Source: Pseudobutyrivibrio sp. (lineage in GTDB: Bacteria > Bacillota > Clostridia > Lachnospirales > Lachnospiraceae). Taken from it: DNA of 64,000 bases. Under the pieces are notes generated by a model that was given only the letters and a program-made list of their open reading frames with translations, was not told the origin of the DNA and did no database searches. This document shows positions 25,782 through 28,742 of this stretch, one piece after another. Each line of letters begins with the position of its first letter. Position 1 is the stretch's first letter. Where the stretch lies: the NCBI RefSeq assembly GCF_015057185.1, contig NZ_SVEV01000001.1:124001-188000 (forward strand). The letters are read 5' to 3'. The translations under genes were made by a program, and so were the position numbers.

Positions 25782-26429
25782 CTATACCATAAGTGCTAAT
25801 ACTCCATACATAGCCATTCCTAAACTAGCGGCACAGCAGCTTGGTGCATCTATAAATATCTTAAGTCCTGTCCTCCGAAGCAATAAACCTAGCAGTTGGA
25901 ATACTAAAGGGTTTAATGCCAAACACCATATCGGCAATATCAAAATACCATTAATTATTAATCCCATTACAACAATTGAAGGAACTATCACTAGCATGCA
26001 ATAAAGAGTAAAAAAGGGTATATATATTTGTGCGAATAAATCATATATAAGTTCTTTCGCTAGTTCTCTTTCACTTCTAACAGAAAGCTTCTGGTAAATA
26101 GTAGGCTGCAGGCACAAAAAAATGTGAATCATAAATCCACCCATTGCACCTATCAAAAATATAGCAGACAAAACTCCCGGAAATAGTTGATAGGACTCTG
26201 TCATTTTATTCATAAGCGCTACAAATCCACAGGAATACATTGGAACAGCAAACATAGCCAAAATGCCTGATATAACAAAACGCCAATGAGACATATTCTC
26301 CCATTCGCTATCTATAATTCCATTTTTTATATTATTAGGTCCCTTTAGATCTAATAACAAATCTGCAATAGCACATAGCAAACCGCCCACTATACCTATA
26401 ACTGCTAAAATATTATTTACAAAAAACAT
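25782..26429 (-). CDS. Integral membrane protein of unknown function (DUF6796-like)
   Basis: 215 residues from ATG at 26429 (GGAGAATG upstream). Six or seven hydrophobic segments, with a conserved-looking start IVGGLLCAIADLLLDLKGP and VPMYSCGFVALMNKM. Similar proteins of this layout are annotated DUF6796 in clostridia; the assignment is from memory and uncertain. It is downstream of the terminator of the MFS gene. Confidence 0.65.
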   Translation of the reverse strand: MFFVNNILAVIGIVGGLLCAIADLLLDLKGPNNIKNGIIDSEWENMSHWRFVISGILAMFAVPMYSCGFVALMNKMTESYQLFPGVLSAIFLIGAMGGFMIHIFLCLQPTIYQKLSVRSERELAKELIYDLFAQIYIPFFTLYCMLVIVPSIVVMGLIINGILILPIWCLALNPLVFQLLGLLLRRTGLKIFIDAPSCCAASLGMAMYGVLALMV

Positions 26430-26485
26430 GATACATTCTCCATAAATCATTCTCATTCATTTTTATAATCCTATAATATCAATAC

Positions 26486-26526
26486 TAAAAAAACAGACTT
26501 AAATCGCACTGATTTAAGTCTGTTTT
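26486..26526 (-). terminator. Strong terminator after the MFS gene
   Basis: On the minus strand AAAACAGACTTAAATC (26526-26511) pairs with GATTTAAGTCTGTTTT (26505-26490), 16 bp, loop of 5, followed by TTTAG. Confidence 0.9.
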
Positions 26527-26570
26527 ACACTAATTTATATTAATTTTAAGTGATTTGAATTTAGTATTTT

Positions 26571-27851
26571 TCATTGTTCTATAAATCTGTATTTTTTCAT
26601 GGATTGTCCAGAAACCAGGCATAACAATGTACCAGAAATTCCAAGAACAAACATCATAAGAGCTGCACCAGAGCCTTTGCCTGTACCAAATAGTGCATTC
26701 CAGAATGAATTATACCTATGATATGCCATAAATGGTTCGCATATGTTATCTACGCTAAATCCACCTAGAAACAGCCCTATAGGAATTGTAAAAAACTGAA
26801 GTGTGTTTCTACAAGCATAGACTCTTCCTTGCAATTCAACTGGTATATTACTACGCATAATAACGTCTTGATTAGCAACCATAAGTGGCACAAAGAACCA
26901 TCCTATAAATTGTCCAACACACCAAACAATTGAACTACTTGAAAATGCTAATATAAAGTTTTCAATTCCAAGAGAAAACAGCATTGTAAGATAAATTACT
27001 CTTACTCTATTCTTTGGCTTTGGAAGAATCGTAGGTAAAAAACTTCCTATTACCATGGCAATTCCTGAACAGGCTGTTACGATTCCAAGTGTATTATTTC
27101 CTGCCTTAGGAATCACAAGTGCTGGAAGAACTGCATCAAATGTAGAAGCAGTAAGATTAACACCAGCCATAAAGAGAATAATAGTAAATATCATAGGATT
27201 ATTTTTTAGGAAAGATAGCCCTTCTTTTGCAAGGATAAGAATACTATCATTTTGGTCCTCCTCTTTTGTTATTTCAGGCAAACTAATAAATAACGATAGT
27301 GAAATAAATGCCACAACAAATGTTAAAAGGTCTACCATGATGACTATATCTAATCCTGCTAGTCCATAAAGCGATGCAGCTAAAATAGGATTGCCTATGG
27401 AAATCAGTGATCTACTAAGAGATTGTAAACCACTGGTCTTTTGATAATCATCCTTTGGTACCACCAGAGTATACGCTACTTCTGATGCCGGTTGTTGTAC
27501 TGTATTCATAAGCCCCGAAAACATGTTTATTGCATAAAGATGCCACATTGTCAGGGTATCAATTTTGTAGAGAATAAAAACCAAAATTGTAGTAAACGCA
27601 GCCAAAAGATCACATACCAACATAGTTTTCTTTTTGTTAAACCTATCTGTTATTGCCCCAGCAAAAATGCTCATTGCAACATAAGGAGCATAGGTGCAGA
27701 TAGATAAAGCTGCCGTACTAAGTGCAGAACCTGTTTTTTCATATATCCATAAGGTAAGTGCAAATTCAGTCATAGCACTTCCTAGTTGCGATAGACTCTG
27801 AGTGCTCCAAAGAATATAAAAATCTCGTAATCCATGTATTCTATTTTTCAT
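26571..27851 (-). CDS. MFS drug-efflux-type transporter (Mef-like)
   Basis: 426 residues with about 12 hydrophobic segments. Near the N-terminus LWSTQSLSQLGSAMTEFAL and the loop DRFNKKKTMLVCDLLAA resemble the DHA3/Mef branch, which holds macrolide efflux pumps. It would export a small molecule using the proton gradient at the cell membrane. The start ATG has AAAAAGGAG 9 bases upstream, but that site is the right arm of a perfect 11-bp stem whose left arm lies in a 12-codon leader peptide. This suggests expression is induced by a ribosome-stalling drug. Substrate is inferred from this arrangement only. Confidence 0.85.
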   Translation of the reverse strand: MKNRIHGLRDFYILWSTQSLSQLGSAMTEFALTLWIYEKTGSALSTAALSICTYAPYVAMSIFAGAITDRFNKKKTMLVCDLLAAFTTILVFILYKIDTLTMWHLYAINMFSGLMNTVQQPASEVAYTLVVPKDDYQKTSGLQSLSRSLISIGNPILAASLYGLAGLDIVIMVDLLTFVVAFISLSLFISLPEITKEEDQNDSILILAKEGLSFLKNNPMIFTIILFMAGVNLTASTFDAVLPALVIPKAGNNTLGIVTACSGIAMVIGSFLPTILPKPKNRVRVIYLTMLFSLGIENFILAFSSSSIVWCVGQFIGWFFVPLMVANQDVIMRSNIPVELQGRVYACRNTLQFFTIPIGLFLGGFSVDNICEPFMAYHRYNSFWNALFGTGKGSGAALMMFVLGISGTLLCLVSGQSMKKYRFIEQ

Positions 27852-27858
27852 TTTTTTT

Positions 27859-27897
27859 GCTCCTTTTTCTAATTAATTATTATTTTGAAAAAGGAGC
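27859..27897 (-). promoter_or_regulatory. Stem-loop hiding the MFS ribosome binding site
   Basis: On the minus strand GCTCCTTTTTC (27897-27887) pairs perfectly with GAAAAAGGAGC (27869-27859), 17-base loop. The left arm covers leader codons 8-11, the right arm contains the AAGGAG of the MFS gene. A ribosome stalled near leader codon 8 would keep the arm open. No T run follows, so the control would be at translation. Confidence 0.75.
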
Positions 27898-27918
27898 TAC
27901 TGCAATGCAGATAATCAT
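27880..27918 (-). CDS. Leader peptide MIICIAVAPFSK of the MFS gene
   Basis: Twelve codons plus TAA, with a perfect AGGAGG (27931-27926) 7 bases before the ATG. The segment IAVA resembles IAVV of the ErmA leader class that stalls ribosomes in the presence of macrolides. Codon 8 (GCT), followed by proline, is the first codon of the stem's left arm. It is short and cannot be proven from sequence, but the ribosome binding site and its exact fit to the stem argue that it is translated. Confidence 0.7.
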   Translation of the reverse strand: MIICIAVAPFSK

Positions 27919-27942
27919 ACTAAAACCTCCTGTATATATAAC

Positions 27943-27960
27943 ATGGTAGACAACTACCAT
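27943..27960. repeat. Short inverted repeat ahead of the MFS leader
   Basis: ATGGTAG (27943-27949), ACAA, CTACCAT (27954-27960) is a perfect 7-bp dyad 12 bases upstream of the leader's ribosome binding site. It could be an operator or an RNA hairpin. No confident promoter was placed for this unit. Confidence 0.45.
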
Positions 27961-28055
27961 TACAACAAGTCGTGCTTTTGCTTCATCATTATTATTTATG
28001 ATTTCACAAGCTTTAAAAACTTCTTATCGTTCAGTTGCTCATTTGTTACATACTT

Positions 28056-28742
28056 TCAATCACAAAACAAAGCATAATTCGTGATAGGAGTCGGAGCATT
28101 TTGAGCTTCATCTTTACTGATTATATGAATTGCCCTAAATTGAATTCCATTCTCTTTAGCTGTCCGCTCCAAAATTGGTACGTACTTTGCATTAAAAGGA
28201 CACTGGCTTGTATAATACAAAACATACCCATTTTCATCTATATGTGGATGCTTAGCACAGTCTTTGAATCGTGGTGGGGCTACCTTATCTTCAAACGGCA
28301 GATACCAAAGCTGAACACCATTATCTGCTTCATCGCCTACAATAAAGCCTTTATACTTCAAAAACTTCGGATCGGCCAGAAACGGCTTTTTCTTAGTTGC
28401 ACATAAAATACAAAGACCCTTCTTGCCTTTTCCTTTGCTATCCTCGATGCAATCATTCAGAAGATCCGTAGAATATCCATGTCCTTTGAAAGAACCGGAC
28501 ACCCACAGACAGTCGATGTACATATATCCATCTGCCTCAATCGGAATCCATGCATTTTCCGCAGGGATATATTCAATGAAACACTTACCACGTTCGGCAC
28601 TCTTCAGAAAAACAAGTCCATCTTCAAACCTATCAGACAGCCAAGTCTTCTTAGAAGAAACTTGTACATCTTTATTATTTGAAATAGCACAACATATATG
28701 CTCGTTTTCAATATTCTCTTTAGTCACCTGTATATAATCCAT
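28056..28742 (-). CDS. YoaP-like N-acetyltransferase, C-terminus cut by an in-frame stop
   Basis: 228 residues as read. GNAT-type N-terminal half (VSGSFKGHGYSTDLLNDCI; CILCATKKKPF) and a YoaP-type C-terminal half (GYVLYYTSQCPFNAKYVP). The frame ends at TGA (28056-28058) after NYALFCD but remains open beyond it for 20 codons (KYVTNEQLNDKKFLKLVKS) to a TAA at 27996-27998. Reading through would give 248 residues, close to the ~250 of Bacillus YoaP, so the TGA looks like a GGA-to-TGA mutation or recoding. AGGGGG precedes ATG. Function in this family is unclear. Confidence 0.75.
   Translation of the reverse strand: MDYIQVTKENIENEHICCAISNNKDVQVSSKKTWLSDRFEDGLVFLKSAERGKCFIEYIPAENAWIPIEADGYMYIDCLWVSGSFKGHGYSTDLLNDCIEDSKGKGKKGLCILCATKKKPFLADPKFLKYKGFIVGDEADNGVQLWYLPFEDKVAPPRFKDCAKHPHIDENGYVLYYTSQCPFNAKYVPILERTAKENGIQFRAIHIISKDEAQNAPTPITNYALFCD

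Follow-up and report, generated by a model that had tools for sequence, protein, structure and literature searches.

A leader peptide and a Shine-Dalgarno-hiding hairpin, probably a translational attenuator, upstream of an MFS exporter gene in Pseudobutyrivibrio and its relatives in Clostridia

We describe an element upstream of a gene for an exporter of the major facilitator superfamily (MFS) in a 64-kb stretch of a Pseudobutyrivibrio sp. contig (the window, to which coordinates refer; the locus is on its minus strand), where a leader peptide is followed by a hairpin that covers the Shine-Dalgarno (SD) sequence of the gene. Several systems of this kind are known. The cat-86 leader arrests the ribosome after five residues, the penultimate one being Thr, and erm leaders carry the motif IFVI or IAVV. 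The chloramphenicol exporter gene cmlA of integrons is under translational attenuation and is induced by chloramphenicol; it has a leader of 9 amino acids (aa), and its SD is hidden by alternative stems (PMC8876359, PMC5418344). In the inducible cat genes and fexA, drug-dependent arrest on the leader opens up the SD of the phenicol resistance gene behind it, and in ermC leader arrest triggers an alternative structure with the SD exposed (PMC5418344). Conserved upstream open reading frames (uORFs) control the resistance genes cplR, vmlR and lsaA, and SD sequestration has been shown for cplR of C. difficile (PMC10201436). The parts of the window element are as follows.

27926..27931, minus strand: leader ribosome-binding site AGGAGG, 7 bases before the leader ATG
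27880..27918, minus strand: leader ORF (open reading frame) MIICIAVAPFSK plus stop, 12 codons, ATG at 27918-27916 and TAA at 27882-27880
27901..27909, minus strand: leader codons 4-6, C-I-A, conserved residues outside the RNA arms and the proposed arrest motif
27887..27897, minus strand: arm 1 (anti-SD arm) GCTCCTTTTTC, which is leader codons 8-11
27859..27869, minus strand: arm 2 GAAAAAGGAGC, containing the SD of the MFS gene, AAAGGAG (27866-27860)
26571..27851, minus strand: MFS efflux-like gene, 426 aa, ATG at 27851-27849, the proposed regulated gene

We consider it probable that the element is a translational attenuator, in which a drug acting in the region of the peptidyl transferase centre would arrest the ribosome on C4-[I/S]5-[A/V]6 and so free the SD of the transporter gene. 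Computed anatomy, conservation, compensatory pairing, gene association and predicted opening position underlie this conclusion. In the absence of drug, arm 1 would pair with arm 2 and keep the SD hidden. An antibiotic near the peptidyl transferase centre would arrest the ribosome on C4-[I/S]5-[A/V]6 with its P site at about codon 5; the arrested ribosome would cover the start of arm 1, the hairpin would open and the transporter would be made. In four-arm relatives, helices 1:2 and 3:4 together would conceal the SD, and arrest at codons 4-6 would leave the end of arm 1, with the stretch behind it, free to pair with arm 3, releasing arm 4, which holds the SD. The window element would be a shortened two-arm form. 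That the leader is translated, that ribosomes arrest on it and that a drug arrests them is what we infer.

The leader, the 11-bp stem and the coordinates given in the original prediction proved correct to the base. Arms GCTCCTTTTTC and GAAAAAGGAGC form 11 perfect pairs around a 17-nt loop, and the stem is present in the predicted fold (211 nt, -45.7 kcal/mol, z -2.89, equalled by 2 of 200 shuffles). The stem is beyond chance: it is the sole SD-covering perfect stem of at least 9 bp among 70 ORF starts within the window (mechanical calls of at least 100 aa, taken at the first start codon), the runner-up having 8 bp, and a stem of at least 11 bp arose in 2 of 3000 dinucleotide shuffles of the gene's own 100-nt upstream sequence.

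The original prediction had staked itself on conservation in relatives. We fetched 41 relatives by protein, of which two (L070, L071) lack the 5′ side, leaving 39 readable; leader and stem are kept upstream of the transporter in 34 of these, two with a broken leader frame. The usual leader among the 34 reads M-x-x-C-[I/S/G/V]-[A/V]-x-A-P-[C/F]-[R/K/S], the exceptions being T at position 4 (L055), a start one codon later together with V-P (L064), T-P (L035), and R at position 10 (L059, L060). Three classes of element were seen, in all of which arm 1 spans leader codons 8-11 and includes the SD complement. In class A, which comprises the window and 7 of the 39, the arms are CTCCTTTTTC:GAAAAAGGAG; in class B (16 of the 39) CTCCATGCA(G/A)AT pairs with ATTTGTATGGAG, G-U pairs included; and class C (11 of the 39) is four-armed, its leader and gene starts lying 110 to 161 nt apart. 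Arm sequences vary between classes and complementarity is kept. Within class A and within class B the arms hardly vary, so that little can be learnt from those alignments by themselves. Nearly all of 77 leaders collected have, by eye, an SD-like purine run before them. Two more distant transporters, L006 (42% identical) and L007 (37%), have apparently diverged multi-arm leaders with other peptides, as read by eye.

Compensatory changes, another proposed check, emerged in the wider family; covariation became clear only after more distant members were added. In A5, an alignment of 37 elements, 7 of the 10 pairs in helix 1:2 show two-sided changes. Over the structure as a whole the cells paired, the two-sided changes and the covariation score were each matched by 0 of 500 shuffles, and the observed value for further pair types was reached by 14 of 500; A5 was aligned to a model with the 1:2 and 3:4 structure, so these counts are biased towards it, and related sequences can exceed shuffles, as the covariation tool warns. 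Slid versions of the structure gave at most 4 pairs with two-sided changes. The alternative duplex of arm 3 with 1′ (the end of arm 1 and the sequence after it) has a mean of -24.3 kcal/mol for the own partners of 36 elements versus -19.5 (standard deviation, sd, 0.59) for permuted partners, and of -23.6 versus -19.0 (sd 0.96) for the 15 elements without the GAGGA type, with 0 of 10000 permutations as low in either case; the last rank of L101 is due to the column window, which truncated its arm 3. The pairing differs by lineage (TGAGGA:TCCTCA, AGGGAC:GTCCCT, GGATAG:CTATCC, CGGACGAA:TTCGTCCG), and since own partners pair better than permuted ones, it changes as a unit between lineages. Together with the conservation in relatives, these wider-family changes leave leader-peptide translational attenuation of an efflux-like MFS gene, as originally proposed, apparently well supported.

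Peptide and RNA constraints can be told apart in a table of 60 rows drawn from the 77 leaders (some of which stand before gene remnants, and one, L137, with no gene seen). The table omits the shifted-start leaders L064, L077, L097, L108, L131 and L132, and includes L128, for which the script picked a wrong start, and L072 and L115, which are one place. Codons 8-9 give A in 56 and P in 53 of the 60, with bases that lie within arm 1; Monoglobus has CTA for CCA (A-L) and AGAG for GGAG in arm 2, and this matching change in the partner arm explains A-P by RNA pairing. Outside the arms, codon 4 is C in 47 rows (TGC 39, TGT 8), codon 5 is I in 32 and S in 18 (50 of 60), codon 6 is A in 35 and V in 18 (53 of 60), and codon 7 is nearly free. 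Where the N-terminus is shorter or longer (MLCIATAPCRV, MIVLPLCIALAPRIV), C-[I/S]-[A/V] keeps its position with respect to the arms rather than the start codon.

SD accessibility was then predicted by folding with the ribosome footprint held unpaired. The four-arm set had 43 elements (those of A5 minus L069, L100-L102 and L105, plus 11 later ones; 42 distinct, L072/L115 counting twice). Their mean accessibility rose from 0.19 when free to 0.44 for a P site at codon 5, and for P sites from codon 8 on it was 0.12; the maximum fell at codon 5 in 35 of the 43, and 28 gained at least 0.2. The window element gave 0.46 free, 0.71 with the P site at codon 4 and 0.86-0.88 at codons 5-8, two-arm forms opening in the folding for a ribosome stopped anywhere from about codon 4 onward. 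Class means rose from 0.52 free to 0.65 stalled in A and from 0.48 to 0.80 in B, for which 10 of the 16 members were folded. The original prediction had a halt at codon 8 free the start of the gene. Such a halt would open the window form, as would any from codon 4 on, but codon 8 is disfavoured as the arrest site of the family because the conserved motif and the predicted opening agree on codons 4-6; as a family rule it was rejected, the four-arm relatives being on average closed there.

We also searched genomes without regard to the gene behind. A 21-base class C piece, GCTCCATGCAGRGYNTGAGGA, allowed up to 2 mismatches, was found at 8 sites in 7 of 196 genomes of the order; seven sites lie directly upstream of this transporter family (one copy, L075, being truncated near its start) and the eighth is inside an unrelated ORF. 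Two covariance models were built, R1 from 19 class C elements and R2 from 37 elements, and matches were counted at E 0.001 per genome in samples that share some genomes. In the Clostridia class sample, the same 391 genomes for both models, R1 matched 25 genomes and R2 matched 31, at 32 places in 27 of 222 genera. R2 further matched 48 of 392 genomes in the order sample (50 places) and 9 of 398 in the phylum sample (9 places), and it recovered the window element itself at E 1.2e-4. A search of Rfam with window positions 26300-28400 and eight relatives gave no match reaching its gathering score, so a known Rfam element was rejected; two of the weak matches fell on the stem itself.

Most genes behind the element are of the transporter family; the assignments were mostly made by eye or from BLAST comparison with the window protein, with Pfam and NCBIfam run on representatives only. 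In the class sample 24 of the 32 places precede MFS genes of this family, counting L161, an MFS relative by eye, and one more precedes a remnant; the others precede 3 CatA-like, 2 Cfr and 2 CD3324 genes. The order sample has 27 MFS places out of 50 (L132 with 339 aa only) and 3 more with truncated or remnant MFS genes, 6 before a 430-aa protein without a Pfam hit (one scanned), 6 before CD3324, 2 SpoU methylases, 2 APH-like, and one each of CatA-like, methyltransferase, radical SAM and no gene seen. The phylum sample has 4 MFS genes, 1 MFS remnant, 3 CD3324 genes and 1 place with no gene. The element also persists upstream of truncated or deleted transporter copies (L075, L105, L109, L129, L147).

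By its model scores the gene at L160 is firmly identified as Cfr (677.8 bits against a Cfr cut-off of 468, and 600 against a CfrAB cut-off of 530). The element precedes cfr there and at L162 (match at 1501 of each locus), the scan of the latter protein covering its first 90 residues only. The CatA calls at L101, L102 and L142 have Pfam CAT E-values of 2e-59 to 5e-57 and reach 212-214 of the 270 bits asked by NCBIfam chloram_CatA; as that cut-off is not reached, we call them CatA-like. A Pusillibacter CatA-like relative (73%) had no recognisable element in the 280 nt inspected upstream. Small helix-turn-helix proteins of the CD3324 family stand behind the element at L106, L110, L111, L112, L145, L146, L148, L149, L150, L152, L163 and L164, assigned by NF040785 on L145 and by eye on the others, L149 being seen at a contig end only. 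The CD3324 gene of L110 is followed by an acetyltransferase like the Vat family (235 of 300 bits), and some of the others, by eye, by GNAT-like or hydrolase-like genes. Candidate leaders of L145, L146 and L152 contain K-R-K runs, which recall the Arg/Lys-X-Arg/Lys macrolide/ketolide motif (PMC8298421). SpoU-type methylases and APH-like kinases lie behind the matches at L136, L143, L153 and L157, the L143 methylase being weakly like TsnR.

The Cfr spectrum comprises phenicols, lincosamides, oxazolidinones, pleuromutilins and streptogramin A. The likeliest inducer, at a chance that we rate as about even, is a phenicol or another drug of this spectrum: the element precedes CatA-like and Cfr genes, and small residues mostly stand ahead of the predicted P-site residue (C 47, A 5, T 1 and S 1 of 60, and G in 3 of 4 CatA leaders). 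With CatA-like and Cfr genes behind the same element, phenicols or other peptidyl-transferase drugs are indicated at least as much as macrolides, and for the two-arm window form macrolide induction is possible. Chloramphenicol and linezolid arrest best with penultimate Ala, and less with Ser or Thr (PMC8987054), a preference that the small residues seen here approach.

Several observations weigh against the attenuator reading. Among the relatives, a recognisable element is absent in 5 of the 39 (L050, L054, L063, L065, L066) and was not found in L003, a 62% identical one. L056 and L069 (2875-3010) keep the arms and have leader frames that shift after codon 7, a natural test of whether codons 1-7 alone matter. 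At positions 4-6, three of the four CatA leaders have G-L-D in place of C-I-A, and Cys, the main predicted penultimate residue, is not named for the Ala/Ser/Thr rule in the available part of PMC8987054. In A5, helix 3:4 has no two-sided change; the first alignment, of 18 closer four-arm elements, did not show covariation above shuffles (122 and 72 of 500); and some own 1′:3 pairs rank low (L081 26th and L069 21st of 36). As to the opening position, 15 of the 43 four-arm elements gain less than 0.2 at any stall position, several class A members gain little (L032, L039, L040), and the best codon moves with the footprint, to 6 at +13 (32 of 43) and to 4 at +17 (30 of 43). Behind some model matches there is no gene or only a remnant. 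In one genus (L133, L135, L138-L141, L167, L168) the leader MRLTI[A/V]x[T/S]PCKV precedes the 430-aa protein, which has no Pfam hit (L133 scanned) and is no known resistance gene; at L167 and L168 it is followed, by eye, by a diaminopropionate ammonia-lyase-like gene.

Of the other explanations, the strongest takes up details of the original prediction, and we find it unlikely: a macrolide-induced attenuator of the ErmA (IAVV) type, with a halt at codon 8 of MIICIAVA freeing a Mef-like pump. The ErmA leader has IAVV at positions 5-8, and the window leader has I-A-V at 5-7. In the folding, stalls at codon 5, 6, 7 or 8 open the window hairpin equally, the transporter is distantly related to Mef(A), and Mef is itself under leader-peptide attenuation, though of transcription (PMC4335068). 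The family argues otherwise, since position 7 is not conserved in the 60 leaders, whose kept residues are C4, I/S5 and A/V6, codons 8-9 are accounted for by RNA pairing, the four-arm relatives are closed on average for a codon-8 stall (0.12) and the element also stands upstream of CatA-like and Cfr genes; assignment to the IAVV class does not hold, the likeness to IAVV being confined to the window leader. CatA-like proteins and Cfr are not known to act on typical macrolides.

Sensing of something other than a drug, such as a shortage of charged cysteine tRNA or a general slowdown of translation, is quite improbable. Of the 60 leaders, 47 have Cys at codon 4 and 47 have it at codon 10, slow decoding near codon 4 would place the ribosome near the opening position, and the ammonia-lyase-like gene in one genus looks metabolic; but codon 10, which lies within arm 1, encodes F in the 8 class A rows and either R or Y in a further three, 10 of the 60 leaders have A, I, T or S at codon 4, I/S5 and A/V6 would be left without a role, and the genes behind the element are mostly relatives of efflux or ribosome-drug resistance genes. 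That the hairpin is a transcription terminator or a mere tuner of basal translation, with a leader that is no sensor, is about as improbable: a stable SD-covering stem by itself lowers translation, and some Clostridia uORF systems combine both levels (cplR, PMC10201436), but a passive stem gives no purpose to the conserved leader start, leader SD and codons 4-6 outside it, and the window stem is followed by A's rather than T's, which makes it unlike an intrinsic terminator, a candidate rejected for the absent T-run (the terminator scan of the window took loops of 3-8 only and was hence blind to a 17-nt loop).

The attenuator may belong to a wider set. Elements before CD3324, Cfr, SpoU and APH-like genes have the arm CTCCATGCAAAG or one near it, and the arm is read in different frames: as A-P-C in the efflux and CatA leaders, as L-H-A-K in the Cfr, SpoU and several CD3324 leaders (R-L-H-A-K in the candidates of L160 and L162), and as S-M-Q in the APH-like ones. 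These wider-set leaders are candidates, several elements offering more than one possible ORF, and at L111 and L156 no ATG ORF over the arm was seen. The shared arm may reflect common descent, or convergence, since any anti-SD arm contains CTCC. Tentatively, as a reading somewhat less likely than not, we suggest a modular switch that would be a common drug-inducible control of much of the Clostridia resistome, in which the anti-SD arm CTCCATGCA and its kin are kept and the sensor peptide is exchanged across all three frames, so that efflux pumps, CatA, Cfr, SpoU-type methylases, APH-like kinases and CD3324-led operons would each answer their own drug.

In a tree of 66 transporters (drawn with a midpoint root and containing long branches), classes A (8 rows) and B (11), 2 class C rows and 2 element-less rows form one 23-row clade with support 100/99, and all rows outside it are class C or element-less. 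The two-arm hairpin of the window is thus nested among four-arm elements, which is most simply read as the shortening of a four-arm attenuator to two arms, once or twice, in the Butyrivibrio/Pseudobutyrivibrio line. Element-less rows fall in three places (L003; L063 with L066; L050 with L054). Wide spread on phages or plasmids was not seen: no phage match to a four-arm element was found, and the one plasmid match is partial (32% of the query), in a 368-kb Monoglobus record. Proteins from plasmid records are below 60% identity, and the two best, from Monoglobus and Subdoligranulum (about 50%), do have the element.

By its model scores the window gene encodes an MFS exporter that is a relative of the Mef and TIGR00900 models, yet below their cut-offs. 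The label 'Mef-like' was loose: the match to the Mef(A) model has E 3.3e-32 but only 112 of the 675 bits required. Mef(B) gives 98.5 of 800, and TIGR00900 (an H+ antiporter subfamily) 187.1 of 319.6 over residues 11-370; the Pfam MFS_1 cut-off is passed (95 versus 33.4). The nearest named relatives are Butyrivibrio proteins of 71-80% identity, and L070 is a 99% identical fragment from a Pseudobutyrivibrio metagenome-assembled genome. A terminator-like hairpin of 16 pairs (26490-26526) comes after the gene, which may therefore be transcribed alone. The neighbours are a GNAT/YoaP-like protein and a DUF6796 protein (28056-28742 and 25782-26456). Immediately upstream of the leader SD lies a perfect 7-bp inverted repeat, ATGGTAG-TTGT-CTACCAT (27943-27960), not seen by eye in the 170-nt upstream stretches of the relatives; it is possibly an operator or the terminator of the preceding gene.

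If the attenuator reading is true, many gut and rumen Clostridia hold silent, drug-inducible intrinsic resistance under one recognisable switch, which could explain resistance missed in uninduced tests. The switch would serve as a sequence signature for unknown ribosome-drug resistance genes, any gene behind it being a candidate; it would add to the natural arrest peptides, with C-[I/S]-[A/V], through which the reading of the nascent chain by drugs can be studied; and it would offer an evolutionary series in which a four-arm attenuator was seemingly reduced to a two-arm one.

Among the open-access papers listed in literature searches we found no description of this leader or element, which is weak evidence of absence. 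The mechanism is of a known kind; within the scope of those searches, what appears new is the leader family, its breadth in Clostridia and the fact that unrelated resistance genes share it. The mef(E)/mel system is alike in that Mef is an MFS relative, drug-inducible through attenuation, and differs in that its control is transcriptional, whereas the window stem has no T-run after it (PMC4335068). The leaders of cplR, vmlR and lsaA have 3-4 residues (MR[I/M], MIN, MAGN), stand before ABC-F genes and in no case resemble C-I-A-x-A-P-C. Unlike ermC and ermA, the window family has neither IFVI nor IAVV in its leader, its predicted arrest is near codon 5, not 8-9, and the window gene is no methylase. 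The arrest geometry of cat-86 is close to that predicted here, but the leaders of cat and fexA are unlike this one, many members of the present family are four-armed, and they serve unrelated Clostridia genes, CatA-like ones included. The nearest known system in kind is cmlA, also a membrane exporter behind a leader peptide of similar length and SD-hiding stems; the element described here differs in having its own leader sequence, a window gene nearest to the Mef and TIGR00900 models and a presence in 27 of 222 Clostridia genera sampled, and the switch family is unusually broad.

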